Assembly: GCA_017654935.2 (NCBI GenBank)
Contig: CM065693.1
Coordinates: 58,144,646 to 58,208,645, forward strand
DNA: 64,000 nucleotides
DNA from: Phymorhynchus buccinoides
Taxonomy: Eukaryota; Mollusca; Gastropoda; Neogastropoda; Raphitomidae
Direction: 5' to 3'
Of this stretch, positions 1 to 59,922 are shown in pieces (the stretch's first letter is position 1; each line of letters opens with the position of its first letter). The notes under the pieces are model-generated. The model made no database searches. It was not told the DNA's origin and saw only the letters and a list, made by a program, of their open reading frames with translations. The position numbers and the translations under genes are program-made.

Positions 1-71
1 ACGAGCGCGCGCGCGCACGTACACACACATATATCACATATATAAAAAAAATCCCTAAATAGTATTCTCTC

Positions 72-606
72 TGACTCTAGCACCAACCTTGACAACGATG
101 GCAATGTTACAGACAACAACGGTGAGGCAGGGCATGATGGAGTAGACACACGTGTCAATCCAGGGCCACACTGTTCTATGACTACAGCACCAACCTTGAC
201 AACGATGGCAGTGTTACAGACAACAACGGTGAGGCAGGGCATGATGGAGTAGACACACGTGTCAATCCAGGGCCACACTGTTCTATGACTACAGCACCAA
301 CCTTGACAACGATGGCAGTGTTACAGACAACAACGGTGAGGCAGGGCATGATGGAGTAGACACACGTGTCAATCCAGGGCCACACTGTTCTATGACTACA
401 GCACCAACCTTGACAACGATGGCAGTGTTACAGACAACAACGGTGAGGCAGGGCATGATGGAGTAGACACACGTGTCAATCCAGGGCCACACTAGTACTG
501 TTCTATGACTACAGCACCAACCTTGACAACGATGGCAGTGTTACAGACAACAACGGCGAGGCAGGGCATGATGGAGTAGACACACATGTCAATCCAGGGC
601 CACACT
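72..606 (-). repeat. 107-bp minisatellite built from the TM5 exon/splice-donor junction of GPCR gene A (5 copies)
   Basis: Five head-to-tail units carry the 3' 83 nt of the TM5 exon plus 24 nt of intron. The exon/donor junction (AAG|GTTGGT on the minus strand) recurs with exon ends at 88, 195, 302, 409 and 522, so spacing is 107, 107, 107 and 113. The last spacing has an extra 6 nt near 491-497. Only the copy ending at 522 joins to the complete 5' part of the exon. The four downstream copies lack the acceptor and the conserved loop cysteine, so they look like intronic pseudo-exons with intact donors. Short open frames here are a consequence of the repeat and are not separate genes. Confidence 0.88.
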
Positions 607-669
607 CGGTTCTCGAAGAACTCGTAGCCAGGGAGTGGAGTGCACTTGTTGTCCACAAACCCGTCTTCT
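522..669 (-). CDS. GPCR gene A, exon 3 (extracellular loop 2 and TM5), intact copy
   Basis: This 148-bp exon sits between an acceptor (AAAG|A, AG at 671-670) and a donor (AAG|GTTGGT, GT at 521-520). It enters in phase 2 and leaves in phase 0, fitting the 2-nt overhang of exon 2. It encodes the loop-2 segment with the conserved cysteine (motif NKC), then TM5 with motifs VWPWID, CVYSIMPCL and CNTAIVVK. The matching exon of gene B at 59198-59045 has the same layout (NKC, WAWIHTC, CNTAI/SNTAI). The acceptor has a weak pyrimidine tract (TGTGTTCAATTAAAG). Assignment to a peptide receptor of the FMRFamide-receptor type is a family-level judgement. Exons for TM6, TM7 and the tail should lie left of the window. 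Confidence 0.82.
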
Positions 670-2039: not shown

Positions 2040-2810
2040 GGTCGGAAACGGTTGACTGGCCTACAGCCATACTCACTGACGATAGGTTCGGCCAAACGAG
2101 TGACTGGCCTACAACCATACTCACTGACCATAGGTTCGGCCAAACGAGTGACTGGCCTACAGCCATACTCACTGACCATAGGTTCGGCCAAACGAGTGAC
2201 TGGCCTACAGCCATACTCACTGACCATAGGTTCGGCCAAACGAGTGACTGGCCTACAGCCATACTCACTGACCATAGGTTCGGCCAAACGAGTGACTGGC
2301 CTACAGCCATACTCACTGACCATAGGTTCGGCCAAACGAGTGACTGGCCTACAGCCATACTCACTGACCATAGGTTCGGCCAAACGAGTGACTGGCCTAC
2401 AGCCATACTCACTGACGATAGGTGCGGCCAAACGAGTGACTGGCCTACAGCCATACTCACTGACGATAGGTGCGGCCAAACGAGTGACTGGCCTACAGCC
2501 ATACTCACTGACGATAGGTGCGGCCAAACGAGTGACTGGCCAACAGCCATACTCACTGACGATAGGTGCGGCCAAACGAGTGACTGGCCTACAGCCATAC
2601 TCACTGACGATAGGTTCGGCCAAACGAGTGACTGGCCTACAGCCATACTCACTGACGATAGGTGCGGCCAAACGAGTGACTGGCCTACAGCCATACTCAC
2701 TGACCATAGGTGCGGCCAAACGAGTGACTGGCCTACAGCCATACTCACTGACGATAGGTGCGGCCAAACGAGTGACTGGCCTACAGCCATACTCACTGAC
2801 GATAGGTTCG
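2040..2810 (-). repeat. 48-bp minisatellite built from the TM3-TM4 exon/splice-donor junction of GPCR gene A (~16 copies)
   Basis: About sixteen 48-bp units run without spacers. In gene orientation each unit contains the last ~15 nt of the exon (ACCTATCGTCA or ACCTATGGTCA), the donor GTGAGTATGG and a TAGGCCAG| segment. The first unit is the real exon end (donor at 2796-2795). Two variants exist, CGTCA and GGTCA, and they are clustered: GGTCA copies lie mostly at 2100-2380, CGTCA copies mostly at 2400-2810. Because 48 is divisible by 3, two minus frames and one plus frame stay open for hundreds of codons. The receptor's own frame meets TGA (CAG TGA) in every unit. The long open frames are therefore not treated as genes. 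Gene B has one unexpanded copy of the same junction (CGTCA|GTAAGTATGG at 59711). Confidence 0.92.
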
Positions 2811-3008
2811 ACCAAACGTGTACAGGAGCTGGGAGTTGAAGGCCAGCATGACGACAACGATGAGGCCGATGGTGATGACCGACCTCCTCATGGTGCACAT
2901 GTTCTTCACGTGGTAGGGAAGGTAGACAGACGTTAGACGCTCGAAGGTCAAGGCCACCACAGTCCACACGCTGACGTCCAGAGTAACGTACACCATCCAC
3001 TTGTTAAT
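2797..3008 (-). CDS. GPCR gene A, exon 2 (TM3, intracellular loop 2, TM4)
   Basis: This 212-bp exon lies between acceptor CTCGTCAG|ATT (AG at 3010-3009) and donor CGTCA|GTGAGT (GT at 2796-2795), phases 0 in and 2 out. It encodes TM3 (WTVVALTFERL), where ERL takes the place of the class A DRY motif, then SVYLPYHV in loop 2 and a hydrophobic TM4 (GLIVVVMLAFNSQ). It ends in extracellular loop 2 (TFGRTYR). The gene B exon at 59922-59711 has the same length, phases and motif order. Exon 1 ends on the conserved Cys-Lys before TM3, so the two join in phase. The 3' end has expanded into the adjoining 48-bp minisatellite, so the true donor could be any of about 16. Use of a later donor by simple read-through would put a TGA in frame. 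Confidence 0.85.
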
Positions 3009-3263: not shown

Positions 3264-5217
3264 GTGATGCCTAACGAAATAAAAGAAGCAAAGAAAAAAC
3301 GAAGACAGGCCCAAGCACAATCAGATTCTTCAGGGCTCACTGTACATAAACAAATATATAATAAAGCTAAAACATTTGTGACTTTCTTGACAGATCAGGC
3401 AAAAACGATGTACTACAGTACCAAAATTGCAGCGGCAAGATCTAGTAAAGAACTGTATTCTATTACAAACAAACTGTGTGCAAGGGTTAAACCTACCAAA
3501 CTTCCGACTGTTTACCCCACACCATCATTGCCATGTCTTTTCTGATTTCTTTCATTCCAAAATTGAGAACATTAGGAAAGAGCTTGACTTGCAGCCCACT
3601 GTCTCCCACCCCCTAGGCAAAGATTTTGTAGGCTCCCCTCTTGTTGCTTTTTCTCCTGTGTCTGAGAAAGATGTTTTTGATGTTTTGAAAAGATCTGCCC
3701 CCAAGACGTGTGACGCTGACCCTTTACCAACCCCTTTGTTGTATGAATGTCTTGATGTTGTTGTGCCTGTCATGACTCGGATCATAAACGACTCTTTACT
3801 GAGTGGTGTTTCCCCTGACCTGCACAAAACTGCTCTTGTTAAACCCTTGATAAAGAAGCCTACCATGGATCATAATGACTTGAAAAGTTATCGGCCTGTG
3901 TCCAACTTAGCGTTTGTCTCCAAAATAATCGAGAAAATTGTCCTTGCCCAATTGTCTAACCATCTGTCAGCAAACAATTTGTTCAACCCCCTCCAGTCTG
4001 CCTATCGACCTGCTCACAGCACTGAAACGGCTCTGACTAAAGTTCTTAACGATCTCCTCTTAGCTCTTGACAATGGAAAAGTGTCAGTCTTGACTTTCCT
4101 AGATCTGTCGGCAGCATTTGATACAATAGATCACACCATTCTTCTATCCCGGCTGGAACGTGTTTTTGGAATCCATTCTACAGTTCTACAGTGGTTCTCC
4201 TCATATCTAACAAATCGCTTTCAGGCTGTCTTGATCAACAACTGCAGTTCAGATCCGAAGTTAATTTCTTGTGGTGTACCTCAGGGATCTGTATTGGGGC
4301 CTGTTCTCTTTGTCCTGTACACTGCTCCTCTATCTGATGTTTTTGCTAGTCACTCTGTTATTGACCATTCCTTTGGTGATGATACCCAGCTTAAAAAATC
4401 GGCAGAACCTACCCAACTTGACAGCGCTATTCAGTCTATGGAATCTTGCCTTCATGATGTCAAATCCTGGATGACATGCAACAAATTAAAACTTAATGAT
4501 GACAAAACGGAAGCTCTGATTGTTTCCTCTCAGCGTATGTCTGCAACTATCTCTCTTCCGGAAACTCTTACAGTTGGCAATGCTTGTGTTCAGTTTTCTA
4601 AGTCAGCAAAGAATCTCGGAGTTACCCTCGATTCAAATCTTACAATGCATAAGCAGGTTATTAATCTCATACGTTCCATCAATTATGAGCTCAGACGAAT
4701 CAGTGCTGTTCGACACTTTCTGCCTGTTGCAGCCACGAAAACTCTTATTTCTGCCTTTATTCTTTCCCGCATTGACTATTACAACTCTCTTCTCTGTGGC
4801 TGTCCTCAATATCTCCTGCAACGTGTTCAAAAACTGCAAAACAGTGTAGCACGCCTCACTCTCAAGATTCCACGTTCTGATCATATAACACCTCATCTAC
4901 GTAACTTGCACTGGCTTCCAGTAGAGGCTAGAATCAAGTATAAAATAGCTTGCCTTTGTTTCGGTGCTGTCCACTCCTCTGGTCCCGTCTACCTCTCCGA
5001 ACTAGAAACTGTCTACACACCTGCTCGCTCCCTACGTTCTTCCTCTGACTGCTGCACACTCAAGGTTTCTCGGGTCCACACGAAATCGTTTGGTGAACGA
5101 TCCTTCTACTATTTAGCACCTCACTTATGGAATTCCCTCCCACAACATATCCGCTCATCTGACTCTATCTCCGCCTTTCGCTGTGCCCTTGAAACTCACT
5201 TGTTTCAGACATATTAG
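3264..5217 (+). pseudogene. LINE reverse transcriptase, frameshifted (L2/CR1-like)
   Basis: The frame starting near 3264 gives the linker between endonuclease and RT (motifs KKKRRQAQAQ, IYNKAKTF), then breaks by a frameshift around 3525-3545. Reading continues in another frame to the stop at 5217. The second part holds the RT fingers and palm: LKSYRPVSNLAF, FLDLSAAFDTIDHT with the first catalytic Asp, GVPQGSVLGPVLF, and FGDDTQL in place of the usual FADD box. The thumb and C-terminal domain follow (SRIDYYNSLLCG, LHWLPVEARIKYK, FGERSFYYLAPHLWNSLP). With no endonuclease and a frameshift it cannot be autonomous. The closest relative in this window is the element at 24.4-26.6 kb, with the same motif order. 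Confidence 0.88.
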
Positions 5218-6344: not shown

Positions 6345-6650
6345 CTTGCAAGAAGCGTCGCTCAGATGGCGAAGATCCAGCTGAAAGAAAGCCAGCACCC
6401 AGTACCTGAGAATCCCCGTGTAGAGGACGAGGAGGTCAGAGACAGCCAGCACGATGAGGTAAATGGCGGCATTGGAACCTCTCATGGATTTCCGGGACAG
6501 TACCAGGATGGACATCGTATTGCCCAGTGTCCCCACCACCAGGAGGATCGAGGAGTAGACTTTCAGCATATTCATTTCTAGGTCCTTGTAGAATTGACTA
6601 TGATCGTCACCGGTCTCCCGAGATAAATCAATGACCGGTATAAATTCCAT
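6345..6650 (-). CDS. GPCR gene A, exon 1 (N-terminus, TM1, TM2)
   Basis: A 306-bp open exon from ATG (6650-6648) to donor TTGCAAG|GTGAGC (GT at 6344-6343), leaving in phase 0. It encodes a short N-terminus (MEFIPVIDLSRETGDD), then TM1 with the class A GN motif (VVGTLGNTMSILVL). A basic first intracellular loop (SRKSMRGSN) and TM2 with the conserved Asp (LIVLAVSDLLVL) follow. It ends on the Cys-Lys that starts TM3 (SDASCK). Motifs and the break before TM3 fit invertebrate peptide GPCRs of the FMRFamide-receptor type; the ligand cannot be told from sequence. The frame stays open upstream to another ATG at 6752, which would add 34 residues. I prefer 6650 because it gives a usual-length N-terminus, but the choice is uncertain. 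Confidence 0.85.
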
Positions 6651-8702: not shown

Positions 8703-8853
8703 AAAGTAAGCTCTATGCAACCTATGACGTCCTTTTACATAGCATACGTCATTTTTATTTTTTCATCATAGGTTTTGTCATTGCTGTTCTTTAACATCAT
8801 CGATTGCGTCTTTTCATACACCTAGTAACCATTCTCTTTTGATTTATTAACCA

Positions 8854-9420
8854 GGAGCGGTATTCATGTCGAGGTGCTAAGTGACTTAGCATACTAATAT
8901 CTTAGTAGCTCCTACTAAAGTCGAAATTTGCTATTCACGTCGACATTTAGGCCTAGCATGATAATAACTTAGTAGCCAAAATCGCTGCTAAGTTAGAGGC
9001 GGGGGGTCCGCCTCTAAATACTTAGCATACTGATAACAATGGCTGCCGTGATTGCAGTTTGTCTCATTCAAAGGAGACATTTACGACGAAAACGCATTTT
9101 TGGTGAGAGACTTTGTCCACTGTAGGCACTAGATGGTATTGACTCATCCAAAAGATTATGTTTTCCAAGAATTGACATCTTTCCAATAACTGGTTGGGCA
9201 CTGGGGCGGCTGGCACATTGTGAACCGAGCCAACGCGCTGTGCCCGTCTCTTTTCGTCAGGTGTTTCTTTCTATGCAAGTGAGTCTTTTCAGTCTGTTTG
9301 TGGTGATATGGTAGGCTTTATTTCACAGCCCATGTCAGCAGAATCGTGTCCAAAGTCAGTGACGCTTCCCTCAAACAGTTTAGTTACTAGATTTTACTTT
9401 TAGGTCAACATACTGCTTGC
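8854..9420 (+). pseudogene. PIF/Harbinger-like transposase relic at the outer edge of the left arm
   Basis: About 185 bp inside the terminal sequence GGAGCGGTATTCATGTCGAG, an ATG at 9039 opens a frame that reads MAAVIAVCLIQRRHLRRKRI before stop codons and frameshifts. Further pieces in mixed frames follow: CFPRIDIFPITGWALGRL, SVCGDMVGFISQP and VSRIVSKVSDAS. Order and wording match the N-terminal helix-turn-helix part of PIF/Harbinger transposases (RFRFPR, alternating LxxL, GSFQSVxGDMxGISQPTVSR). No DDE catalytic residues are visible. Multiple disruptions make it a relic. The mirror copy is at 37856-37290. Confidence 0.7.
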
Positions 9421-9977
9421 TGAATGTGTGTGTTCGTATGATGGCTTTATAAGTTTATTCATCGAAGGGAGCTTTGTTTTGTTTTGTTTACCGTTGACAA
9501 TGCCAACCGTTACCCACGTAGCCGTTGTCTACAAAACTTCCTGCCTTGCCACCTACCGGCAATGACCTTAGACTTCATCAATTCCTGCAATGATGAAAGA
9601 AACTAAAACAAATCTTTGTTGTTGTTGTGGTGGTGGTGTTGTTGTTCTAGACTAGTCTACCACATCTGTTATAGATGAAGGTAAGGGTTCCCTCGATAGA
9701 TCTAGACGATACCTACATCATATCGTGATAATGCTGAAATAAAATACATAAAATATGTAGTCTAGTCTAGATCTAATGTGTCATGATCATGATGCTGCAC
9801 GCTAACTAGACCTGTGCAAACTTATTGCCCCTATTTCATTCAGTAGATGACACACAGGCCCACACGGATCTGAGAATGAAGAATAACAAGTCTAGATGTG
9901 TTTGAAAATGTTTTCTATGTTCTTATGAGGTGAAACAGAAAACAAGTTAAACGTGTGTGTGTAAGTTTGCGAGTGTG
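9421..9977. other. Left arm: unassigned AT-rich sequence
   Basis: No gene seen. Contains a short (TTG)n tract near 9618-9645 that is mirrored in the right arm at 37070-37100, and otherwise no recognised element. The inner end of the Harbinger relic may lie here but I cannot place it. Confidence 0.4.
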
Positions 9978-10345
9978 TGGGTTCGAATCCAGCTGGGGTC
10001 GCAGTGGTGTGTCCTTGGGAAAGGCACTTTACTCCTATTTTCCTCACGCCACCCAGGTGTAAAATGGGTACCTGACGTCAGGTCCCGTGTGCGAACGCAT
10101 GCACAAAGATCTTGTGCACACGTTAAAGCCCATTCCACTAATCGGTAGGAGTAGGCCATGTGCCGGTGGGATGGATGACACAAACTCACATAGCATGCAT
10201 CCTGTGCGCCAGTTGCAGTCTAAATGAAGACTTTGGGCGTTGGGCAGCATAAACATCCCCAATATGAAGAAGAGGCATAGTTTTGTTACCACATACCCTA
10301 GCCCACCCCTACCCCCATACTGGAGTGATGTCCGGAGGCCCTGGT
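9978..10345 (+). mobile_element. SINE-like repeat with tRNA box B (left arm)
   Basis: A perfect pol III box B (GGGTTCGAATCC, ~9979-9990) is followed by a conserved SINE body (TGTCCTTGGGAAAGGCACTT, CACCCAGGTGTAAAATGGGT) and a downstream module ending at CATAAACATCCCC. The 5' end with box A has eroded into a GT-rich tract. The same downstream module without the tRNA head recurs at 17640-17790, so it is a family. The mirror copy in the right arm is at about 36730-36300. Confidence 0.65.
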
Positions 10346-10439
10346 CATAGTCCATTGACCTATTAATATTGAAAATGTCCTATTGTGTTCTCCCCTGTCA
10401 GGACTAATGTCTGATTATTTTTGTAACACAAACTGTCCT

Positions 10440-10850
10440 ATTGTGTTCTCCCCTGTCAGGACTAATGTCTGATTATTTTTGTAACACAGGCGAACTTTGT
10501 CTTATTGATTTCTGGAAAGAGCCAGGACATTGTCCTATTGATTTCTCTTGTCTCAGGACATCTGTGGCAGCGGGCGGGACAGGAACCAGTTGCCTAGCAG
10601 ATTCAACAGAGGAAGTGGGGCTGGATTGGACACACCCACAGGAAACCAGCATCACGTGCCAGGCCCTGACGTGGAACCCCCAGAGGAAAAGGACGAGATG
10701 TCGGCATCACAACAGCTGGAGGAGGGACACCCTGGCTGAACTGGAGAGACAGGGAACGAGCTGGAATGGCGTGAAAAGAGCTGCCCAGAACAGGGTGTGA
10801 TGGCGGGGTGTCGTCAGTGGACTATGCGCCTCTTGGAGCACCAGTCCTAA
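10440..10850 (+). mobile_element. LINE polymerase C-terminal fragment (left arm)
   Basis: Frames in this stretch read LDWTHPQETSITCQALTWNP, then RHHNSWRRDTLAELERQGTS and WNGVKRAAQNRV, then stop and read on as WRGVVSGLCASWSTSP. This is the familiar end of LINE polymerases (GHVxR, ALxWxPxGKRxRGR, TWRRxxxxEL, W, A..R..W, LC). It is frameshifted within the Trp-rich part and has no catalytic region. It ends at a short (TAAG)n tract at 10849-10860. The mirror copy is at 36275-35860. Confidence 0.65.
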
Positions 10851-10860
10851 GTAAGTAAGT

Positions 10861-11689
10861 AGGACAGTTTGTCCTATCACTTTTCTATCCTCGGTACATG
10901 ATCACTTTCACTATAAATTTACATCCATGATACAACTAGTCCCACATACCGCTAGTCCCACAAAATGTCTCTCTCCCCTTGTGTCCGTCAAACCCATATG
11001 AACGCATGCGCGCGCACATACACGTACATTTACACTCTCACACACAAGCCCATTCAGAATATAATTATGCGTGCATTGTACTCGCGCATAAACAACGGTG
11101 TGTGGAACTAGCGGTATGGTAACAAAAGTATGCTTCCATGTGTGTGTGTGTATGCTCGTGCGCAAATGTGTTTGTGTGTGTGTTAGAGAGAGAGAGAGAG
11201 AGAGAGAGATCATGTAGCCAATTGTATTTATAAGTTTTCAAGTTGTCAGTCTTGCCTATTGTATTGGGGGGTGTTGTCTGATTAACAAGACCTTTTTTTC
11301 CCTCCTACCTCCTCCATCCACCTTTCACCAACAATGCATGATAATGCCGACACATGAACTGTTAGAAAACGTGCTATATGAAATTAGGCATATAATGTGT
11401 CTGAACAAGTAAAGATGCCTCACAAGCATATATAAAATGAGTTGCTAAAAAGTCAGTTATAAGCAGCTATATTTTGTGTTTGTATCATCAGTGAGTGTGT
11501 GTGTGTATGTGTGTGCTCGCACATGCATGATTGTGTGTTTGTGGTTTTTAAAGCACTTGCACACATGCATATATGTGCAAGCACCCATACATATGCATAC
11601 ATATTTTTGTAAAAATAAGATGAAAAGATAAACATTTGATAATACTTGATTCTATATCAAATATACCCAAAAATATTATAGGCCGGGCT
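10861..11689. other. Left arm: microsatellite-rich, no gene
   Basis: Holds CA/GT-rich tracts around 11010-11180 and 11495-11560 and an (AG)n run at 11185-11209. No coding frame beyond repeat translations. Confidence 0.6.
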
Positions 11690-11872
11690 GGCCCTATGGT
11701 TTACAGGTTGAACTTCAACAGAAACCATATAGAAGTAAAGCCATGTGATTTTGATTTCAATTTTTGTTTTTGTTTTATTGTTGTTTTTCAGACTGGCAGT
11801 GAAGATTTCAATCCACAAGCGCAGGACGTGCCAGTGCACACTTCTGATGCTGTGCCAGCTGAGTACACGATT
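11690..11872 (-). mobile_element. tRNA-derived SINE, family 2 (left arm)
   Basis: On the minus strand the head reads TGGCACAGCATCAGAAGTG, a box A-like start, with a degenerate box B (GGATTGAAATCTTC), then a T/A-rich body. The copy at 34160-34330 preserves it better (TGGCACAGTGTTAGACGTG and GGGTTTAAATCTTC), which shows that this is a tRNA head. Mirror copy in the right arm at 34865-35060. Confidence 0.6.
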
Positions 11873-12369
11873 ACCACATCCATGTTTGGTCATGTTAATA
11901 ATATTAATATTTGTAATTATGCTTTTTTTAATTTTTATTTAGGGTGGGTGGGGAGGGACTAAAACAGCTGTCTGATGTCCACCACACCGAATAGAAGACT
12001 TTTGCAGTCAGCCATGTGTGTGTGTATTTCATGTGAGCATGCTTATTTGCTTGTCCCGTGTATATTACATGTTTGTGTGAAAACAATAAATGTTTGTAGC
12101 ATGAGTGTATCTATGATACACACACGTATGTGCATGCACGCACATGTAATTTGTAATCATGCAACTAGCACATCAAAGTCTGTTTAAAGTATTCCTGTCA
12201 TGCCATCTGTAGTTATATCAGTAAAATAATGAGACTGTATGATACTTCTCACCTTGGCATAAGGCTGTGTCAGACCAATTGACATAAGGTAGAACACCAA
12301 GACTACATCAAAATGCTATGTTCTAAATAGTTATGCGAGGATTGTCTATAGCCATGACAAACTCCTAGC

Positions 12370-12540
12370 ATAACATCATCAGTCTAAAATCCTCCGGTCG
12401 GAGTGTGGCTGCCCACATGGCGGGGTAATACAAAACAGTCACACATGCAATGTTCTCATCCATAGCTGGTGCGTTTTGTACCATAGTATTCAAGTGCTTC
12501 GGCTGTTGGGATGATCCCTGAAGTCTTTAAAGGCACAGCC
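12370..12540. repeat. Dispersed repeat, three copies in window (left-arm copy)
   Basis: The stretch containing GTAATACAAAACAGTCACAC, AATGTTCTCATCC, AGCTGGTGCG and GTGCTTCGG..GTTGGGATGATCCCTG recurs at 60195-60360 and in the mirror position 32400-32560. Type unknown; no tRNA box or inverted termini seen. Confidence 0.6.
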
Positions 12541-13273
12541 GGACTGTAAAAGGAGGGTAGGCTTGACGCGCGCTTAGTATTCCAATCGCTGCAGCCACAG
12601 AAGCGGGTTTTCCCTTCTCTTCCCCCTATTGTGTGAGAAAGCAGCCTTCGCGCGCCGCGTCAGATGTGTGGGACCAGCGTTATCTGATCCTAGGGATCGG
12701 TTGATAGGCCTTTAAGTATGACAACAACAGCAACAACATTACATGGGCATAAGGCAGGTGCAGGGGACCTGAACATTACCAAAAAGGGTAGAAATGCCTC
12801 TTTTAATGAATATCAGTGAAATTTCTGGCTAGTTTCTGTTTGGAATCATGCTTAGTTTAAGTACACTTATACTCTGTGAACAAAAAACAACACAATCGAG
12901 GTTAATTTGAATTTAGTTTTATTAATTTAAAAACTTGTATGTAGAAGTCATCAGTAATATTTATCATTCATTCATATGATTGGAACAAGAAAAATGATAT
13001 AGTACAACATATGTTAGTGTTAAACGGCAACATTATTTCTGTGCTTGAATATACAGAACACACCTTTTGTTTGTTTGGTTAATTGTTATTTATCCTTTTT
13101 TCTTGATACAATCAGAATAGAAATCATGAGCAATATCAGGAAAAAGGAAGATTGAGACCATATGATGACTGGCAACAGATTTTTCCTTTTTCTTTTAAAA
13201 TCTATTTCAGATAGGGAGCTGTGACGCCTTTTATACAAGCAGTCCATATAAAGCCGCTAGTGTGCAGACATCA
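12541..13273. other. Left arm: unassigned AT-rich sequence
   Basis: No gene or complete element recognised. A short GC-rich patch at 12560-12670 (gcgcgc motifs) is conserved in the mirror position near 32290. Confidence 0.4.
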
Positions 13274-14118
13274 GGAGGCAACGAACAACAGGAGAAACTG
13301 CACAGATGATGCAGCACTTGGTGAGAGCATAGCGCTTAGCAGTATAGATATGGTACTTATTAATAAATGAATAGTAACATTAATCAACAAGTAAGGTGTA
13401 TCAATAATTGAATTTTGAAATGGATGTCTTTACACTTTAGCTCTAGACCTTTAGCTCTAGTTCAGTAATTGTTACATATTGTTTCATAAATAGTAAAAAT
13501 TATGAACATTGAAAAGTAATAAAATGTAAATTCAAAGGTTTAAAATGTGCAACAAGATTTTTTTTTTTTACAGGTTTGAAATGTTTTTTTAAAAAGTTTT
13601 TCTTTTAAAGATTTGAATGTTCAGGTATCTTGGCATTCATTTCTAACACCACTTTTTATCCTCAATTTCAGTTAACAAATGTCTTGATTCATTATAATAA
13701 TAATAATGAACATTTATAGCCCCTAATCTCAAAAAAGCCCTAAGCGCTTACAATAATAATTGAAAAAACCCCAACACAAACAAACCCAGCAAGCAATATA
13801 TAAATAAATAGATGACAAAAATATATTATACACACATGCACGCGCGCGCGCACGCACGCACGCACTAAACACAGACAGACGCACGCACCAAACAGATACA
13901 CACACACACACACACACACGACACACACACACACACACACATGCACAAACACGCATACAACGCGGTTGGAAGGGGCACAGTACTTTGAAAAGAGATATAT
14001 CATATCTTCCTCCCTTCAATGTGCCACTACTAGTGGAAACTGATCTTGCTACGGTTACGGCTACCGATCAAAGACTTGACTTTGATTAGGCCTACCTTTA
14101 TTTTAAACAAATTACCCG
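13274..14118. mobile_element. 845-bp block present only in the left arm, with a LINE 3' end
   Basis: The mirror site in the right arm (31668) joins GACATCA directly to ATAATTCC; here the two are 845 bp apart. The block contains an L2-type LINE 3' end on the minus strand (13694 to about 14010). This has an (ATT)n tail, the stem GTAAGCGCTTAGGGC..GGGGCTATAAATG, a CA/CG-rich tract, and the same TTGGAAGGGGCACAGTACTT segment found at 62.8 kb. The rest of the block is unassigned. Insertion here or deletion in the other arm are both possible. Confidence 0.7.
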
Positions 14119-14439
14119 ATAATTCCAAAGATGCCAGTGTCTAAATGTCTTTGGATGATTATTCTTTTGCACACCATTCATCCATCGATCCAAGTTAAAC
14201 TTGAAGACACAAAAATAGCCCAGAGAGTGGTTGCATTTGAAAAAATTCAACACACCTGTCCGTTCATTATTTTTTTTAATTAATTAATGAAATCACACAC
14301 AGTCTTACAATCACATTCATGCTTAAGTCTAACCTTTAAGCTTTCCAATGACATATAACTTTACATATTAAATTATTATTATTTTTTTTTAATTTAATAA
14401 AGAAAATGTCTTTGTTTTACTGTCTGGTGGTGTTGACCA

Positions 14440-14580
14440 TAGGCCTTTTCATAGTATTCGGGCTGGACCAATCTGGCTAGCGTAGCGATCACCGGGGTCG
14501 AACCCTGACCGGCCCAGCTCCCCCCCCTCTCAAATGTTGTTTCAAGTCTCTCTAATAGTTTGTGTGTGTGCAGAGCTACA
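14440..14580. repeat. Repeat with a box B-like motif (left arm)
   Basis: GGGTTCGACCCCGG on the minus strand (here ccggggtcgaaccc) matches a tRNA T-arm, but I see no box A at a proper distance on either strand. Mirror copy at 31255-31350. Possibly a remnant of a third SINE family. Confidence 0.35.
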
Positions 14581-14892
14581 AATTGTCGGCGCGCCTGCGT
14601 CATTGACCCATTTTTAAAACTGTTTTTTGACATCTTACTATTTTGACTCCAAATCTTACTACATCAATTTTTTGGGGTACCGGTACCCAGGTCTGCACTA
14701 GTCATTTTCTTTGATTTTAGTGTTTTATCAGATTTCATAATTTAAAAATGTTTGATTCCCTTATGCTTGGACTTTTCCATGTATGTTCATATTAATTAAT
14801 AGAATTTTGTACATTTTATTTTTAATCAATAAAATAGTAGTTATAAAACATGCATAAAAATAATAAATTCTACACATGATTTTTTTTCAGAT

Positions 14893-15120
14893 GCTGACAT
14901 CTCTGATTTCCACACTGCTGGTCAACTTGTCTTCAGTGATGTCCACACGGCTGGTCAACTTGTCTTCAGTGATGTCCACACGGCTGGTCAACTTGTCTTC
15001 AGTGATGTCCACATGCCTGGTCAACTTGTCCTGTCTTCAGTGATGTCTACACGCCTAGTCAACTTGTCCTGTCTTTAGTGATGTCCACACGCCTGGTCAA
15101 CTTGTCCTGTGCTACTGCAT
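14893..15120. repeat. ~30-39-bp minisatellite (left arm)
   Basis: About six tandem units built on TGGTCAACTTGTC(CTG)TCTTCAGTGATGTCCACACG. Units with and without CTGTC alternate, so unit length varies. The mirror array at 30635-30885 has about seven units, so copy number has changed since the arms separated. Confidence 0.85.
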
Positions 15121-15954
15121 TCACCGCAAGGAAGATGGGGGATTCCATCCTGTCCTGAAAACATACAAATCCACCTTGATATTTAGAGTTTTCACACATA
15201 CAAAACTGTACAGGAGTCATTCAACCTGTTGAAAGACTGTTTGCCTATTTTGTTCATGAAGCATACTCAAGTTTAATGCATATTTCTAAAGTTCTAGGTA
15301 TAAAAAAACCTGTTGCAAATCAATTTTGAATTTTTTTATTTGTAAAAGAAAACGTTTTTCACAGAATTTCTTAAGGTGGCAGGCCTAGCTGAAATATAAC
15401 CAAAATATGTGTTCAAAAGTTATTAATTTAAAGGAAAATTTTGTGTTGTCGGGCAAGTGAGAAAAAATAAAGTTTACCCGAGACCCATATTCAGCTAGGC
15501 CTGCCGCTTAAAAAAATAAACTCAAGGCTACCCTGTTCTCCCTGAAAATGTTAAATCCACACATAGACAAAAAGTTTTTTGTGACGACGAGAAGATAAAA
15601 ACTGAAAATATTTTACAATGCAGGATTTTTTTTTTAACAAAGGACTTTTTTTTATTATTATATGGGTTCCAATGAAAACCACCTTTATTTTTTTTAACGT
15701 TTTTAAGGAACTAACAAGCATCTGGAAAAAATTCTTGTTCTGAACTTTCATCAGTTGAGCATGATTATTAAAAACTTTCATGAATAAATTTGTTTGTGGC
15801 TTGCAATTGTTTGGTTTTGCCCTATATATTTTTTTATAAGGAAGTTGAGTGCGTTATCTTGCTCAGTACTGTATTAAAAAAAAGTCCCCAGATGAGACTT
15901 AAAACTGAGGTCCCGTGTGCGAACGCCTGCACAAGGTCTTGCACAAATATCAGG
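15121..15954. other. Left arm: unassigned AT-rich sequence
   Basis: Contains a small inverted pair: GGTGGCAGGCCTAGCTGAA at ~15374 and TTCAGCTAGGCCTGCCGCTT at ~15491, about 100 bp apart, which suggests a short fold-back MITE. Otherwise nothing recognised. Confidence 0.45.
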
Positions 15955-16155
15955 TATTAGGTACTTTATAGTCACAGAGGCGTCTCTGTGAAATTCGGGT
16001 TGCTCCCACCTGGTGGCAGCCAGAGGCGCGCCACCCATTTTTTTTCTTTTTTTTTTTTGCATGCAATTTTTGTCACTGGGGGGTGGGGTAAATTTTGACC
16101 AAATGACAACTTTTTCGTTGCCACTGGGTTTAACGTATGCTAAGTGCATGGGCAC

Positions 16156-16189
<34 letters not shown>

Positions 16190-16310
16190 TCCATGTTCAG
16201 ACCGTTAAGGCCTAGTGCAGAATGAGAGGAAAAAATCCCCTGTACCCAGGTTCGAACTCGGGTTTACTTGACACGAAGCGAACGCGATACCACTGTGCCA
16301 CTCTACACCA
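15955..16310 (-). mobile_element. tRNA-derived SINE, family 1 (left arm)
   Basis: On the minus strand, box A TGGCACAGTGG (16300-16290) and box B GTTCGAACC (16257-16249) fit the pol III consensus exactly and are spaced as in a tRNA. The body has GGATGAGACGATAAACCGAGG, TGCCCATGCACTTAGCATAC and a poly-A-like/T-rich stretch, and ends near GGCGCGCCTCTGGCTGCCAC..CAGAGACGCCTCTGTGA. Copies at 29415-29770 (mirror) and 33478-33835. It is a SINE, not a functional tRNA gene: the anticodon region does not fold cleanly. Confidence 0.8.
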
Positions 16311-16508
16311 CATCTGAAGGGTCACTAAATTCTTTTAGTCATAAGAAATAAATCTATCCCATGAAATTACTCCAGTTTTAGCCTGAAAGTAAAACACAGC
16401 CTGAAAAACATTTAGAAACTTATGTATGGTTGAAAATTATATCTGTCACTACAAAATAAAAATTAAATAAAAAAATATCTAGTGGTTTTACTGTTTTGAA
16501 AAAAAAAC

Positions 16509-16686
16509 ATACCGTATTTTACGGACTATAAGGCGATACTTTTTTCCTAGACTGAGACCTTTGCGCCGTATAATGTGACTGATAAAATAGTAAGAAATTA
16601 TAATAACAAAATCTGAATTTTGTGTAAAAATTGGGGGGTGCGCCTTATAATCAGGTGCGCCTTGCAGTCTGTAGAATATGGTAAAT
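16509..16686. mobile_element. MITE with CCGTATTTTACGGACTATAAGG terminus (left arm)
   Basis: The 5' end CGTATTTTACGGACTATAAG and the 3' end CTTGCAGTCTGTAGAATATG are imperfect inverse complements about 180 bp apart. Sub-terminal AAGGCGATAC..GCGCCTTATAATC also pair. Terminal wording is like MITEs I know from many animal genomes, but I do not assign a superfamily. Mirror copy at 29060-29213. Confidence 0.6.
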
Positions 16687-16689
16687 GTC

Positions 16690-18775
16690 ATAAATTTTGG
16701 TGTATACACAAATGGATGTCATAATTATCAGAATTTTGTCTTGGGGAATGAGACATATATGGCAAAATACATCTTATGATTTAAGACATAATAATACGCA
16801 AAATTTATTAAAATAAAATGTATGATAATTATGTGAAAAACACATAGTAAACAATTATTTTCAAAACGGCTGTGACAAAATCCAGATAATCAGTTGGTAC
16901 AACAGTGCAAAATTTCAAGCGAATATCTTATATAGTTTTTCAAATATATCTGCTCAAATTGGCAAAAAATGATCAATTTTCACTGTACGTAAGAGATTTT
17001 GGTGTTCATCCTATTTTTTCATCGTAAAATCAGGCATGAAAACTACTGTTCCCCCCAAAATAGGAGATTTTTTAGCCAAGGAATCCTTCCACCCGGATTT
17101 ACGGCTAGAAGTGTTTTTTTGGGTGGGTGGGGCAAATACTGGTCCAAAAATTTCTTTCAGGCACGAACATCCTTCCACCCGGATTTTCAGCTGACGTCTG
17201 AAGTTTTGTTGGGGGGGGGGGGGGGGGGGGGGGGTTCAAATACTCATTTCACAATTCGCCTTCCAACTAACAACTTTTTTTTTTACAAGGTTTTGATTTG
17301 GCCAACTCAATACACATATTCTCGGCGGACGCCATCTTTGAAATGACAACGGCAGAAGAGCAAAAAGGCACGAAATGAAGATTGTGCCATATAAAGATAA
17401 TCTTGATTCAGGTTTTTTTCTCTTTTCAGCGGAGATTTTTTTGTTTCGGCGGAGATCAATTTTTTTAAAAATTTGTCTGAGACGGCGGAGCTGTTTTCAT
17501 GCCTGTAAAAGGGAACAAAATTCATGGTACAAAGAACAAAATTTAAATTTCACATTAAATCATAATCATTTTAGTACAGAAAAATCAATATAACTTCAAC
17601 AAAAAGAAAAGTTGTTTTTTTACTCTTAGAGTAGGTCTACCCTCTTAATTAAGCCCATCCCACTATTCAGTAGGAGAAGGTCATGTTGCACCAGTGGGAA
17701 GGATGACACAAATTCACATATATCACACATCATGTGTGCCATTAAAGGAAGACCGGTGGCCACAGGGCAGGATAAACATCCCCAACTGGAAAAATAATAA
17801 CTTTTGCGTGGACTGGTAGATTGGCTCACAAGACTCAAACACTGAGGATGCATTACTACCAACAAACTTTGGATGGATTTCTATAAAATAATTGTGATTC
17901 TTTTTTTCTGTTCTTTTATTTTTAGGGGGAAGGGGGTGGGCAGGGCTGAAGGGGGGAGGGGGCAACCACAAACCAACCAAACAGGAACCATTTACCACTG
18001 TTTCAATCCCTATCTGCATGACCATTTTGATTCCAGACAAAGTTAATCAATAATAATTGTTCTTGCAAGATAAATACTGATTTTATATTTGTTCATCCTT
18101 CATGCCCATGCAACAAAATCATACAGAGAATTCCACTGGTAATCGATGCTTGAGGCTTTCAAAGAAAAAAATATTTTTAAAGAGAAAAGAATTAAAAAAA
18201 AGCTTGACAGATTTTTAAAAATCATGGTGCAGTTTATGAGGTCAGAAATTACATTTGGATTTTTTTACACCAAGGTTACTTTCAGTTTACTGCAGCGCCT
18301 GCTCAGGTCAACTGTGCTATGGGGAATTGTCTTGAACTGAAACACACACACACACACTACTTAGTAGTAATACATTCAAGTGTAGTTCTTAGCAAATCTT
18401 GTGTGTGTGTGTGTTAGTGTGTGAGAGAGAGCTAGAGACTAGAGAGAGAGCATGGGTGGGGAACTGAAACGACTGAACATAAAAATAAAAAGGTTTCTTA
18501 TATGATACTGCACAGAATTTGAACACACACAATGTGTGCACAAAATTTAATGAATGGAGAAAACAATCTTCTTATTTAATTAAAAAAGGAAACAATACCA
18601 CAACTTCTCTAAATCATAGTCTACAACTAAATCACAACAAATATTCAGTCAAGCTTATCAACTTTTTACTGTTACCAGTGTTAGGCTTTGTTTTAATTGA
18701 ACACATGCATATTCAGTGTAAAAGTGACAGTTGAAGCGATCGGAAAAGGAAAACAAACAATCAGAATTATTTTTG
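16690..18775. other. Left arm: AT-rich, short duplicated motifs, no gene
   Basis: Contains the near-duplicate CATCCTTCCACCCGGATTT (17084 and 17167), a poly-G run (17213-17235; only a short tract in the right arm) and GGCGGAGAT repeats (17435-17490). It also holds the headless SINE-body module at 17640-17790. All open frames are short and mirrored in the other arm with different lengths. Confidence 0.5.
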
Positions 18776-18909
18776 TTAAAGACCCCCCACGTCACGTGTC
18801 ACATTCCCTCTTATGCTAGGAAGATTTATTAAGATTTCTTACCAGCTATAAGAGGGAAAACACAAAAAAAACAGTGATTTTGACATGTGGTGACGTAGTG
18901 GGTCTTTAA
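18776..18909. mobile_element. TTAA-flanked MITE (left arm)
   Basis: Starts TTAAAGACCCCCCACGTCAC and ends GTGACGTAGTGGGTCTTTAA, about 25-bp inverted termini with TTAA at both ends. Copies at 26815-26943 (mirror) and, split by a LINE, at 62500-63341. TTAA target use suggests piggyBac-type mobilisation, but no transposase is in the window. Confidence 0.8.
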
Positions 18910-19554
18910 TGTACTTGGTCCTAGACATAACTGCATTCAATCCTATTAAAAATAAACATTAAGAAATAAACAAGTTAAATCATGTTTCTTTTTGCTACAA
19001 ATTTACAGACCATTGTATTCTTTAACACTAATTCAGTCAGTGAATTGCCTATTCACTAATTCAACTTCGATTGTTACAAATTCAAATTTTGATTCCATGC
19101 AAAAGGTGTTCTTTTCATAACTTTTCGATTTTTACACAAAGACCAATTTATGCAGCAAAAATATCAATTCTGATCTTATTCCATTCAGGGCTAAGTATAG
19201 AAAAGTGCTTTATCAAAGCTAAATCACTTTATGCATTTCAGTTTTCGTACATACAGAGAGGGAGAGAGACGGACAGACACACAAATTCTCCCAACTACTG
19301 AACTATCTTTGATCACACATAGCACGAGAGAAAAACAAGACTCATTGCTATCCCCTTTCTTACAAAAATAATAGGATGCGAGTCCGCATCCACAGTGATG
19401 CAACAGGACAGATATCCTGTCAGAGGTCAAGACAATATTACATTTGACATGTTAATAGGCCAATGTCCAGAAAATGACAGAAATGTGCATCACTGCATAC
19501 AGACAATCTTGTAAGCATGCAAGCAAACTTGCGCCCAGAGTCACACTTACTTTC
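18910..19554. other. Left arm: unassigned AT-rich sequence, LINE-free site
   Basis: No gene. At 19380-19395 it holds the undisrupted version of the site that carries a 2.2-kb LINE in the right arm (CAGTGATG..TGCGGACTCGCATCC). Confidence 0.5.
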
Positions 19555-20790
19555 TAGGCCCTTTCAGCCCAGTGGAGCATCTAGGCAATCAATGACGCCG
19601 GCATCACACTCTGTTCTGGACAGCTCACTCAAGACGCTCCAGTTGGTTCCCTGTATCACCAGTTGTGCCTTGGGAGCTCTTCGCTAGTCAGACTGGTCTT
19701 GCCTGAATTGGGAAACAGAGGTCTATGGCACACACACACACACATACAGATCAGTTTGACTTGACTTGACACACATATATTTTACACATTGCAAAAATCC
19801 AAGTCATTTCTACATTGCTTAGACCTGTTGCACAGCTAAGAAAAACTAAAGATTGACAAAGAAGAAACAAGTAGAAAAGAGGAAGCATTTGTCAAGCCTC
19901 AACACCTCCCCCCCCCCCCCCCCCCCCCCCCCCCCTTCTCTCCTGTTGACAAAAGTGAAGATGAAGTCCCACCCCTCTCAGCCATGCTTGAGTACTAATC
20001 CAGTCACTGAATTACATAATTATTCAACTTCAATTATTATTAATTCAAATGTTGATTCTATGCAATACTTGTTCTTTTAATACATTTTAGAGTTGTATAC
20101 AATGAACAGGAAAAATATATAAATTCTGTTGTATTCTATTCAGGGCTGAGTGTAAAATTAAGGACTTATAGTTATACTTATCTCATTACTGAGTATTAAA
20201 TACTCTATACTAATAAGATTTCTATTTGCTCATTCACAAAATATTTATATAGGTCATGAATACTTTATAGTTGGAATATTTAAACTATACACTTTACAGA
20301 GTTGTGACAATTAAAATGGCTGCATTTACACAAAACACAGAATCACACAATGGTGTGGTGTGACATCACACAAAGGTGCAGAAACACACAATTGAGCAAA
20401 TAATGCCAAACAGAGCACTTCCATACCCATCCATTCAAATTGATGGTCAAACTGGAAAATAATTAATAACAAAGAACAAGCTATTTTAGAATACATGTTC
20501 TATAAAAATAAAAACAACTTAGTTTTGAAGATTAAAAAAATGTATGATACATAAACAGACAAACTTGTAAGCATGCAAGCAAACTTGAACAAGGAGTCAC
20601 GCTTACTTTCTAGGCCCTTTGATCCCAGTGGATCATGGCTATCGGCGACACTCTGGCATCACACTCTGTTCTGGGCAGCTCCCTCAATATGCTCCAGTTG
20701 GTTCCCTGCATGTCCAGTTGTGCCCGGGCAGCGCTTCACTGGTCAGGCTGGTCTTGCCTGGATACTGGGATATATATAAAGGTCTATGGT
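19555..20790. repeat. Pair of related dispersed repeats (19555-19725 and 20595-20785)
   Basis: Both copies contain GGCATCACACTCTGTTCTGG, CTCCAGTTGGTTCCCTG and GGTCTTGCCTG. They are related to the LINE C-terminal end at 10.7 kb (shared layout of AACTGG, CCCAGAACAG and GTGTGATG on the other strand). They sit in direct orientation about 1 kb apart. Between them are a long poly-C run (19907-19935) and AT-rich DNA. Mirror copies lie at 24080-24260 and 23010-23215. Confidence 0.5.
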
Positions 20791-21300
20791 CCACACACTC
20801 ATCTCAACATATTTATTCAGGAAAATTACATGAAGATGATGACGACCACACGGTTCATTTCCTGACGATTAAATTGTTTACAAAAACATGTATACATTTG
20901 CACACAAAATCACCAGAAGTAGGCTTAGCTAAAAAAAAAAATAATGTGCAAAAAATTATGAAATGTAAACAGACAAAAGGAATGAGTGCATAGATCTCTC
21001 TCTTGCATAATTCAGAATTTCTCATGTAATATAATTTAAAATAAAGATGTTTTTAAACCTGAATGTAAACATTCTGGCCAACACAAAGTAAACAAAAGCT
21101 ATCACTGTAATTAGTGTAAAAACAAAGAAATACACCATTTTTATATAAAATTTTTATAATTATAATACTTTTATTAATAGTATTAAATATCAAGAATTCT
21201 ACTTAATTCAGAAAAGTAAAACAGTAAATCTAGCCAATTTATACATTTTGTAGGACATTTACATCAACATATTTATTGCAAGCACATCACACACACACAC

Positions 21301-21514
21301 CAGGGCTCCCAATCGTCCCGCAAAACAAGGGGTCCCAGGGACTCCTTCACTTACATTATAGAGGGTCCTAGAGGCGGGATAGAGGGTCCCAGTGGCCATA
21401 GTGAATGCTAAAATAGTGCATCCCTGGGACCCCCTGCACATTCTTTTAGAGGGTCCTGTAGAATTTTAGAGCTTCATAAAATCATAGACCCCCAAATGTG
21501 GGTCCCTGGGAGCC

Positions 21515-21517
<3 letters not shown>
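21301..21517. mobile_element. hAT-like MITE inserted in a CA microsatellite (left arm)
   Basis: Terminal inverted repeats CAGGGCTCCCA and TGGGAGCCCTG bound a 217-bp element, and inner repeats (GGGTCCCAGGGA / TCCCTGGGACCC) also pair. It is flanked on both sides by (CA)n. CAGGG termini are typical of hAT elements; the CA flanks hide any 8-bp duplication. Mirror copy at 22276-22492. Confidence 0.75.
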
Positions 21518-21546
<29 letters not shown>

Positions 21547-21572
21547 CTCAACATCATTTTACTGGTCAATGT

Positions 21573-22216
21573 TGTGGGGTGGTGCTTGCACTTGTACAGA
21601 GGGGTGAAAAAAAGCAGTAAATCATTTACTAAATCAGTAAATGTGTGTGTGTGTTTGTGTGCGCTGCCTCTGCACACTGCCGGTGCCACCCCTTAGCAAG
21701 ATTTTTGAAATTTCCCAGGAGCACCCATGTAGCCGCAAGGCTCTTCTTGTTGAAGTGGCGGTGCCTTTCAATGCCTTTGCTGACAGCTGCTCTAATGCCA
21801 AATGTGATAAGTACCTCCCACTGTGCATGGATGGAATTGTGATGCGTATCTTTGGCAGTCTAGTTAACATGCATTGAAGAGGCTTAGGTTGATAAGTGTG
21901 TGGTCCTACACTACAAAGTGGATGGCTTACTATCTGCCATAATTAGACCATTCAGGCTGTGGCAAAGCGCTGCACTGACCTAAAATGAAATTTATGAAAT
22001 TAGTAGGTCTGACAATGCTCTGCAAAAAGGCCCATAGGAGCTTCCAGTGTGTGTGTCAAGTCAAAATTATCTCTGTGTGTGTGTAAAATTGAATGCTGAC
22101 TTAAAACCATAATCTAAAAATATTTTGATTAACTAAATTGTTTATTCAGCCCATTTGGTGCTGTCAATGTGTAAAAATTGCTTTTGCTATCATAATGTTG
22201 ATTTAATTGATATCAG
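21573..22216. other. Unpaired spacer at the centre of the inverted repeat
   Basis: About 640 bp between the arms that I could not pair with itself. Within it, about 21700-21870 (+) reads FEISQEHPCSRK, LLVEVAVPFNAF and CDKYLPLCMDG, which resembles the C-terminal tail of LINE polymerases (VEVAVPFD..KCEKY.PL). The rest is AT-rich and unassigned. Confidence 0.6.
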
Positions 22217-22246
22217 TCAACATTGACCAGTAAAAATGATGTTGAG

Positions 22247-22275
<29 letters not shown>

Positions 22276-22278
<3 letters not shown>

Positions 22279-22492
22279 GGCTCCCAGGGACCCCCATTTG
22301 GGGGTCTATGATTTTATGAAGCTCTAAAATTCTTCAGGACCCTCTAAAAGAATGTGCAGGGGGTCCCAGGGATGCAGTATTTTAGCATTAACTATGGCCA
22401 CTGGGACCCTCTATCCCGCCTTTAGGACCCTCTATAATGTAAGTGAAGGAGTCCCTGGGACCCCTTGTTTTGCGGGACGATTAGGAGCCCTG
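22276..22492. mobile_element. hAT-like MITE (right arm mirror copy)
   Basis: CAGGGCTCCCA to AGGAGCCCTG, flanked by (GT)n on both sides; mirror of 21301-21517 with a few substitutions, including within the distal terminal repeat. Confidence 0.75.
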
Positions 22493-22523
<31 letters not shown>

Positions 22524-24412
22524 GCTAACAATAAATATGTTGATGTAACTGTCCTACAAAATGTATAAATTGGCTAGATTTACTGTTTTACTTTTCTGAA
22601 TTAAGTAGAATTCTTGATATTTAATACTATTAATAAAAGTATTATAATTATAAATATTTAATAAAAAAATTGTGTATTTCTTTGTTTTGACAGTGATAGC
22701 TTTTGTTTACTTTGTGTTGGCCAGAATGTTTACATTCAGGTTTAAAAACATCTTTTGTTTAAATTATATTATTACATGAGAAATTCTGAATTATGCAAGA
22801 GAGAGATCTATGCACTCATTCCTTTTGTCTGTTTACATTTCATATTTTTTTGCACGTTATTTTTTTGTATAGCTAAGCCTACTTCTGGTGATTTTGTGTG
22901 CAAATGTATACATGTTTTTGAAAACATTTTAATCGTCAGGAAATGAACCGTGTGGTCGTCATCATCTTCATGTAATTTTCCTGAATAAATATGTTGAGAT
23001 GAGTGTGTGGACCATAGACCTTTATATATATCCCAGTATCCAGGCAAGACCAGCCTGACCAGTGAAGCGCTGCCCGGGCACAACTGGACATGCAGGGAAC
23101 CAACTGGAGCATATTGAGGGAGCTGCCCAGAACAGAGTGTGATGCCAGTGTCGCCGATAGCCATGATCCACTGGGATCAAAGGGCCTAGAAAGTAAGCGT
23201 GACTCCTTGTTCAAGTTTGCTTGCATGCTTACAAGTTTGTCTGTTTAAATATCATACATTTTTTTTATCTTCAAAGCTAAGTTGTTGTGGGTTTTTTTTT
23301 ATAGAACATGTATTCTAAAATAGCTTGTTCTTTGTTATTAATTATTTTCCAGTTTGACCATCAATTTGATTGGATGGGTGCTCTGTTTGGCATTATTTGC
23401 TCAATTGTGTGTTTGTGCACCTTTGTGTGATGTCACACCACACCATTGTGTGATTCAGTGTGTGTGTGTGTGTTAGTGTGTAAATGCAGTCACAACTCTT
23501 TGTAAAGTGTATACAGTTTAAATATTCCAACTATAGTATTCATGGCCTATATAAATATTTTGTGAATGAGGAAATAGAAATCTTATTAGAGTAATGAGAT
23601 AAGTATAACTATAAGTCCTTAATTTTACACTCAGCCCTGGATAGAATACAACAGAATTTATATATTGGCATATATTTTTCCTGTTCATTGTATACAAATC
23701 TAAAATGTATTAAAAGAACAAGTATTGCATACAATCAACATTTGAGTTAATAATAATTGAAGTTGAATTAGTGAGTAATTATGTAATTCAGTGACTGGAT
23801 TAGTACTAAAGCATGGCTGAGAGGGGTGGGGATAAACTTCATCTTCACTTTTGTCAACAGGAGAGAAGGGAGTGGGGGGGGGGGGGGGGGGGAGGTGTTG
23901 AGGCTTGACAAATGCTTCCTCTTTTCTACTTGTTTCTTCTTTGTCAATCTTTAGTTTTTCTTAGCTGTGCAACAGGTCTAAGCAATATAGAAATGACTTG
24001 GATTTTGCGCAATGTGTAAAATATATGTGTGTCAAGTCAAGTCAAACTGATCTGTATTGTGTGTATGTGTGTGTGTGTCATAGACCTGTTTCCCAATCCA
24101 GGCAAGACCAGTCTGACTAGCGAAGAGCTCCCAAGGCACAACTGGTGATGCAGGGAACCAACTGGAGCGTCTTGAGTGAGCTGTCCAGAACAGTGTGATG
24201 CCGGCGTCGTTGATTGCCTAGATGCTCCACTGGGCTGAAAGGGCCTAGAAAGTAAGCGTGACTGGGCGTAAGTTTGCTTGCATGCTTATAAGATTGTCTG
24301 TATGCAGTGATGCACATTTCTGTCATTTTCTGGACATTTGCCTATTAACATGTCAAATGTAATATTGTCTTGACCTCTGACAGGATATTTGACCTGTTGC
24401 ATCACTGTGGAT

Positions 24413-26600: not shown

Positions 26601-26814
26601 TGGATCCTATTATTTTTGTAAGAAAGGGGATAGCAATGAGTCTTGTTTTTCTCTCGTGCTATGTGTGATCAAAGATAGTTCAGTAGTTGGGAGAATTTGT
26701 CTGTCTGTCCGTCTCTCTCCCTCTCTGTATGTACGAAAACTGAAATGCATAAAGTGATTTAGCTTTGATAAAAAGTATAAGCACTTTTCTATTCTTAGCC
26801 CTGAATGGAGTACA

Positions 26815-29535: not shown

Positions 29536-29569
<34 letters not shown>

Positions 29570-59044: not shown

Positions 59045-59198
59045 CTCGATGATGATGGCGGTGTTGGAGACGCAGACGATAACCAGGGGGATCAGGCAAT
59101 ACAGGCACGTGTGAATCCAGGCCCAGATATTGTCCAAAAACCACTCATACTGCCGGTACGTTCCACATTTATTGAGTACGGCCCTTGTTTCTCCTTCT
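59045..59198 (-). CDS. GPCR gene B, exon 3 (extracellular loop 2, TM5)
   Basis: A 154-bp exon from acceptor TTTTTGGTACAG|A (AG at 59200-59199) to donor ATCGAG|GTTTGC (GT at 59044-59043), phases 2 in, 0 out. It encodes a loop-2 stretch (EGETRAVLNKCGTYRQ) with the cysteine expected to pair with TM3, and TM5 (WAWIHTCLYCLIPLVIVCV, SNTAIIIE). An internal AG at 59153 would give the wrong phase. The donor GTTTGC is weak, and the dispersed element at 58677-59038 begins immediately after it. Gene A's TM5 exon is the clear paralogue. Confidence 0.83.
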
Positions 59199-59710: not shown

Positions 59711-59922
59711 TGACGATAGATTATGCCACGAGTGTATAAGTACTGGGAGTTGATGGTAAGCATGGCAACAATGATGATGGTCAGGACTACAAATGGCGTC
59801 CTTCTCGTGCAGTTTGTATTCACGTGGTGGGGCCGGTAGACAGCCGTGAGACGCTCAAAGGTCAAGGCCACCACAGTCCACACACTGGAGTAGACAGCCG
59901 TGTAGACCAGCCAGGAAGCAGC
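59711..59922 (-). CDS. GPCR gene B, exon 2 (TM3, intracellular loop 2, TM4)
   Basis: A 212-bp exon, the same length as in gene A, from acceptor CCTTCGTCAG|GCT (AG at 59924-59923) to donor CGTCA|GTAAGT (GT at 59710-59709), phases 0 and 2. It encodes TM3 (AASWLVYTAVYSSVWTVVA), LTFERLTAVYRPHHVN at the cytoplasmic face (ERL for DRY) and TM4 (FVVLTIIIVAMLTINSQ). The start of loop 2 follows (IIYRQ over the junction). The donor context is a single copy of the motif that is expanded 16-fold in gene A. The exon for the N-terminus and TM1-TM2 was not found to 64000. Confidence 0.87.

Follow-up and report, generated by a model that had tools for sequence, protein, structure and literature searches.

Genes and Other Features of the Locus

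The window, by which we mean the whole stretch of 64,000 nucleotides analysed from the gastropod Phymorhynchus buccinoides (contig CM065693.1), contains on its minus strand a receptor gene, gene A, three exons of which are in view, with a mobile element in its first intron (slashes in motifs mark splice junctions).

6345..6650, minus strand: gene A exon 1 (N-terminus, TM1-TM2), read from the ATG at 6650, donor AAG/GTGAGC.
2797..3008, minus strand: gene A exon 2 (TM3-TM4), 212 nt, from homologue and paralogue alignment.
522..669, minus strand: gene A exon 3 (TM5), 148 nt, from translation and homologues, its start set from the frame.
3391..5217, plus strand: reverse-transcriptase ORF of a LINE-like element, 608 codons, from the ORF list (Pfam RVT_1, 110.2 bits).

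Exon 1 is defined by its open frame, by the homologues P0001-P0003 and by the Pfam family 7tm_1. Exon 2 starts after an acceptor-like sequence, TTTTCCTCGTCAG/ATT (TCAG/ATT), and runs from 3008 to 2797 in frame with exon 1 (6650-6345), the junction between them being ungapped in the alignment to the three homologous proteins. The exon 2/exon 3 junction falls in a loop that aligns to the homologues with gaps, and for this reason the acceptor of exon 3 (AATTAAAG/A, from 669) was placed from the frame only. The 221 codons of gene A in view across the three exons contain no stop or frameshift, and alignment to the homologues places TM1-TM5 within the window; past exon 3, the gene extends beyond the window start. 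The LINE-like reverse-transcriptase ORF lies inside intron 1 of gene A, on the opposite strand.

With a query carrying five extra residues, gene A scored above the Pfam cut-offs for both 7tm_1 (43.1 bits, cut-off 30.5) and Srw (35.1 bits, cut-off 22.2). A protein search retained three of 321 candidates at E 0.001. These were a hypothetical protein of Littorina saxatilis (57% identity over 85%), an ENA protein that carries no name (44% over 87%) and, from the annelid Owenia fusiformis, a protein with 33% identity over 96%. The sequence has the look of animal DNA, and the Littorina match would point to a gastropod. The matches to solved structures were all distant receptors, 64 sequences with E values up to 0.001, and galanin receptor 2 was the best match (7.2e-8) among the best 60 of these 64. 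Judged by these alignments and domain matches, gene A is a rhodopsin-like (class A) GPCR gene with TM1-TM5 in view. The L. saxatilis protein (P0001, 235 aa) itself ends in NIAIVVKVRATYFVCSSRVP and lacks TM6-TM7; the donor of its TM5 exon seems to have been read through into the intron, perhaps through a gene-model error.

Toward the other end of the window lies a paralogue, gene B, of which two exons were recovered.

59711..59922, minus strand: gene B exon matching exon 2 (tblastn, 55% identity over 76 aa), single donor GTAAGT.
59045..59191, minus strand: gene B exon matching exon 3, start approximate (tblastn, 41% identity over 49 aa), single donor GAG/GTTTGC.

In a tblastn search for the first exon of gene B, exon 1 of gene A retrieved only itself and matches at E 0.48 or worse, and the gene B fragment reached 27.4 bits against Pfam 7tm_1, below the cut-off of 30.5. 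Over exons 2 and 3, the two genes differ by a dN of 0.42 and a dS of 0.85, which is a modest sign of past constraint that is not specific to gene A alone.

Several other repeats occur in the window. A large inverted duplication spans 8850-37862, in which 8850-21574 pairs with the opposite strand of 22218-37862 as segments about 89 to 96% identical, the center lying near 21900; both of its arms carry a 33/38-bp tandem repeat (14904-15110 and 30631-30892), the 33-bp form of which keeps the frame (EDKLTSRVDIT) and the 38-bp form of which breaks it. Two direct repeats of 2.5 kb (49741-52239 and 56083-58585) are 99.2% identical and enclose a 661-codon ORF (54211-52226) that by eye looks like a retroelement gag, so that together they are possibly a young LTR element with long LTRs. 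Finally, a 41-bp tandem repeat of 9.8 copies (47210-47871) is open in all three plus-strand frames, yielding overlapping ORFs of 191, 175, and 195 codons.

A Donor Array at the End of Exon 2

2046..2818, minus strand: array 1, 16 donors in 48-bp units (Tandem Repeats Finder and direct reading).

Tandem Repeats Finder delimits array 1 at 2046-2818, with a period of 48, 16.1 copies and 97% matches. Direct reading of 2860-1991 on the minus strand places all 16 occurrences of GTGAGT exactly 48 bp apart, at 2796, 2748 ... 2076, and each is preceded by ACCTAT(C or G)GTCA, with C in nine and G in seven copies; the sequence-only reading, which had described about sixteen 48-bp units with these two motifs, is thus borne out in exact register. 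Of each unit, some 22 nt belong to the exon end and 26 nt to the intron. The first donor (2796) coincides with the 3' end of exon 2, and the frame, the homologues and the paralogue, all of which support the exon at 3008-2797, lead us to infer that the array starts at an authentic exon 3' end (2797), as had been proposed for the TM3-TM4 exon. The paralogue had been said to possess a single junction, and gene B indeed has one, CGTCA/GTAAGTATGG, at 59922-59711, with no array there.

Splicing from the first donor of array 1 leads in frame into exon 3 (CGT CA/A GAA). Any later donor had been predicted to add a stop (CAG TGA), and translation for donors 2 to 5 agrees; the same stop is expected after donors beyond the fifth, because their products include the same first unit.

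Across the window, the minus strand holds 42 GTRAGT hexamers, of which 16 fall in the 773 bp of array 1, a concentration beyond chance. The other 26 all lie outside the 13 tabulated arrays, a set taken from the Tandem Repeats Finder table that omits repeats of short period and several small rows (e.g., periods 19, 20, 23, and 31). On either strand, array 1 is the only one of the 13 to contain this hexamer, and the notion that donor arrays are a window-wide rule was rejected on that count.

Origin and Growth of Array 1

When the array is collapsed to a single junction, the flanks contain the word CGTTT at -22 and +26 of the donor, a spacing of exactly one unit (48). This pair, which 3.2% of random stretches equal, is suggestive of a founding duplication by slippage or end joining. 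The 14 internal units have a mean identity of 97.2% (lowest 91.7%), which argues for a recent amplification. Their differences are arranged in blocks, as copies 10-15 all have A at -12 and G at -5, and six of the eight copies 2-9 have C at both positions; growth would thus have proceeded via block duplication. Only four of the 48 columns vary among internal copies and the nine donor columns are invariant, the donor 9-mers being identical in all 16 copies; with so little variation, selection on the donor letters was discarded as an argument.

The pattern of these differences also bears on whether an assembly artefact could account for the copy number, which we regard as very unlikely. No difference separates copies 10-14 in the 48 columns compared, and such stretches are easily miscounted. 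Against this stand the block pattern at the four variable columns and the fact that the first and last copies enter different flanks; moreover, an error could alter the count but hardly invent the array.

A Second Array at the End of Exon 3

68..606, minus strand: array 2, five copies of the exon 3 end with donor AAG/GTTGGT (Tandem Repeats Finder and direct reading).

A second array, absent from the sequence-only reading, covers the end of the following exon of gene A (522/521). Its donors lie at 521, 408, 301, 194, and 87, with spacings of 113, 107, 107, and 107, and they are off consensus at +3 to +5. Copy 1 is the exon itself; two codons that specify Thr in copies 2-5 specify Met and Ala in it, and its spacer exceeds those of the other copies by 6 bp. 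Reading beyond the first donor meets TAG after VGAVVIEQY. Two candidate founding words were considered, GGATT, paired at a distance of exactly 107, and GAGAA, paired at a distance of 111; neither is clearly at a unit edge, and no claim is made for them.

Gene A thus has an array at two of its three visible exon ends, and gene B at neither of its two. Given that the 13 tabulated arrays make up 7.4% of the window, the chance of at least two exon ends falling in arrays is 0.016 for the three of gene A and 0.047 for all five when gene B is included, a coincidence that is weak because the calculation is post hoc.

Predicted Strength and Accessibility of the Donors

The predicted pairing with U1 amounts to -7.6 kcal/mol for the first and last donors of array 1 (the two tested) and likewise for the first donor of array 2, to -9.6 kcal/mol for the exon 1 donor, to -7.5 and -5.0 kcal/mol for the gene B donors, and to -14.0 kcal/mol for a perfect donor. 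These values suggest that the array 1 donors are of middling strength.

They also bear on the standing of gene A, which may be a pseudogene, as its TM6-TM7 lie outside the window. It could be a decaying copy that is not usefully expressed, in which both arrays would therefore be tolerated while gene B or other genes do the work. The presence of arrays at most of its visible exon ends, the off-consensus donors of array 2 and the location of TM6-TM7 beyond view would all suit such a copy. In contrast, the uninterrupted 221 codons, the 57% identity to the Littorina protein and a predicted U1 pairing (-7.6 to -9.6 kcal/mol) that is not weaker than in gene B speak against such a copy, and we hold decay to be rather unlikely.

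By eye, the array 1 unit can fold over its donor through AGTGA...TCACT. The predicted cost of opening the first donor is 7.7 kcal/mol, the 16 donors spanning 2.9 to 8.3, and the first is not the most accessible of the 16 in the predicted folds. In the full array, opening it costs 6.7, 8.9, and 5.6 kcal/mol with flanks of 100, 150, and 200 nt, respectively; with 150 nt, the single junction left after collapse costs 8.1, the gene B donor 6.0 and the exon 1 donor 5.2. For two, three, four, and eight joined units, the costs are 5.8, 8.6, 8.9, and 8.9 kcal/mol with 150 nt, and 9.3, 4.0, 6.2, and 5.3 kcal/mol with a longer context. The predicted costs thus shift more with context than with the array, and masking of the donors by a hairpin was rejected.

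Relationship to Known Donor Minisatellites

The claim that no described gene has the donor itself as its repeat unit does not stand, since intron 18 of human ABCA7 contains a variable-number tandem repeat (VNTR) of 25-bp units, from about 12 to 427 in number, the first two bases of which are the exon 18 donor (PMC5954066). As in array 1, the tandem array begins at an authentic exon donor, and use of a later donor means a premature stop, observed in RNA for ABCA7, where one unit is retained, and predicted for array 1. Retention of one unit is 2 +/- 1%, independently of VNTR length, and the stop-containing transcripts increase under translation block (PMC5954066). What grows with VNTR length is skipping of exon 19, by 3.2-fold when the samples carrying the largest and the smallest alleles are compared and by 4.1-fold between alleles within a single patient (PMC5954066). 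The two arrays differ in their units, those of ABCA7 including no exon sequence as described there and those of array 1 (48 bp) some 22 nt of it, and in copy number, for which array 1 provides a single value, 16, from one assembly. ABCA7 is known from RNA and population data, and array 1 from sequence alone.

A second minisatellite of this kind, in human IFI6 (6-16, G1P3), is reportedly about 26 x 12 nt in unit length and copy number. According to secondary statements on this minisatellite (Turri et al. 1995), IFI6 isoforms take downstream repeat units as donors; they are said to encode different proteins, whereas the later donors of array 1 add a stop.

These precedents bear on the proposal that array 1 acts as a splicing rheostat, in which the 16 donors are equivalent competitors, receptor comes from the first alone, and its dosage is set by the length of the array. 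The identical donor 9-mers, the stop after any later donor and the IFI6 isoforms are in keeping with it. On the other hand, donor identity is uninformative when so few internal columns vary, and the one-unit isoform of ABCA7 remains constant across lengths (PMC5954066); by analogy with ABCA7, tuning of the functional receptor by array length through donor choice, as put forward in the sequence-only reading, appears unsupported, and we consider a rheostat unlikely.

Intron gain by tandem genomic duplication (PMC4974935) resembles array 1 in that the duplication spans splice-site sequence; unlike that case, array 1 multiplies an existing junction and no new intron is evident. The array 1 junction is CA/GT, and the units of array 2 contain AAG/GT, which makes it conceivable that a whole array 2 unit is removed as a new intron. 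A bolder and quite unlikely proposal is that two consecutive exon ends of gene A separately became donor arrays, in each of which only the first donor keeps the frame, that the two together form a heritable, length-variable brake on receptor output, and that AAG/GT in array 2 perhaps serves as both acceptor and donor, so that whole units are spliced out stepwise.

In the open-licence literature searched, no donor minisatellite from an invertebrate was found, which is not proof of absence, nor any report of two exon ends of one gene as donor arrays; passages of PMC12783039 (repeats in intron 1 of an earthworm gene), PMC3045353 and PMC3549977 describe no donor inside a repeat unit. Array 1 is a further member of the donor-minisatellite kind, with ABCA7 and IFI6 as direct precedents, and it differs from them by the exon sequence in its unit, by its location in an invertebrate receptor gene and by the involvement of two exon ends of one gene.

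A Model for Array 1 and Its Implications

The account that we favor, and think probable, is that array 1 is a recently amplified minisatellite, generated by tandem duplication across the junction between exon 2 and its intron in a class A GPCR gene, of which the first donor is mainly used and the later donors give rise to minor, stop-containing RNAs. The first donor would yield most of the productive gene A mRNA, and a few per cent of the transcripts would leak to later donors and acquire a premature stop; these would be degraded, or a TM1-TM4 fragment would be made. The repeats would be nearly neutral, because the exon and its first donor stay intact. If array length is relevant at all, it may act on inclusion of exon 3 rather than through graded donor choice; such an effect is expected from ABCA7, where exon 19 skipping follows length and one-unit retention is flat. 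Skipping of exon 3 would shift the frame, as this exon is 148 nt long.

Several points count against the favored account. When two donors are comparable, it is the intron-proximal one that is favored, by a mechanism described as unknown (PMC6002489), and such a preference would favor the last donor of array 1 and leave gene A mostly silent. In addition, the predicted folds give the first donor no advantage in accessibility over the others. Finally, gene A may be a pseudogene, and its dN and dS against gene B are a modest sign of constraint.

The later donors might also be bound but unused. U1 protects transcripts from early polyadenylation, and array 1 could be an intronic cluster of U1 binding sites that guards against premature ending or boosts exon recognition. 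A 5' splice site lying downstream is reported to recruit SRSF1 and to help the 3' splice site upstream of it (PMC8724738), which would be consistent with such a cluster. Yet the paralogue gene B manages without an array, and we find a U1 cluster scarcely credible.

The selection rule is described as not known even for two comparable 5' splice sites (PMC6002489), and array 1 would constitute a natural test of how the spliceosome chooses among many equal ones. Should arrays like that of ABCA7 also be present in molluscs, with two in a single gene, minisatellites at exon ends could represent a general and rapidly changing source of splicing variation.
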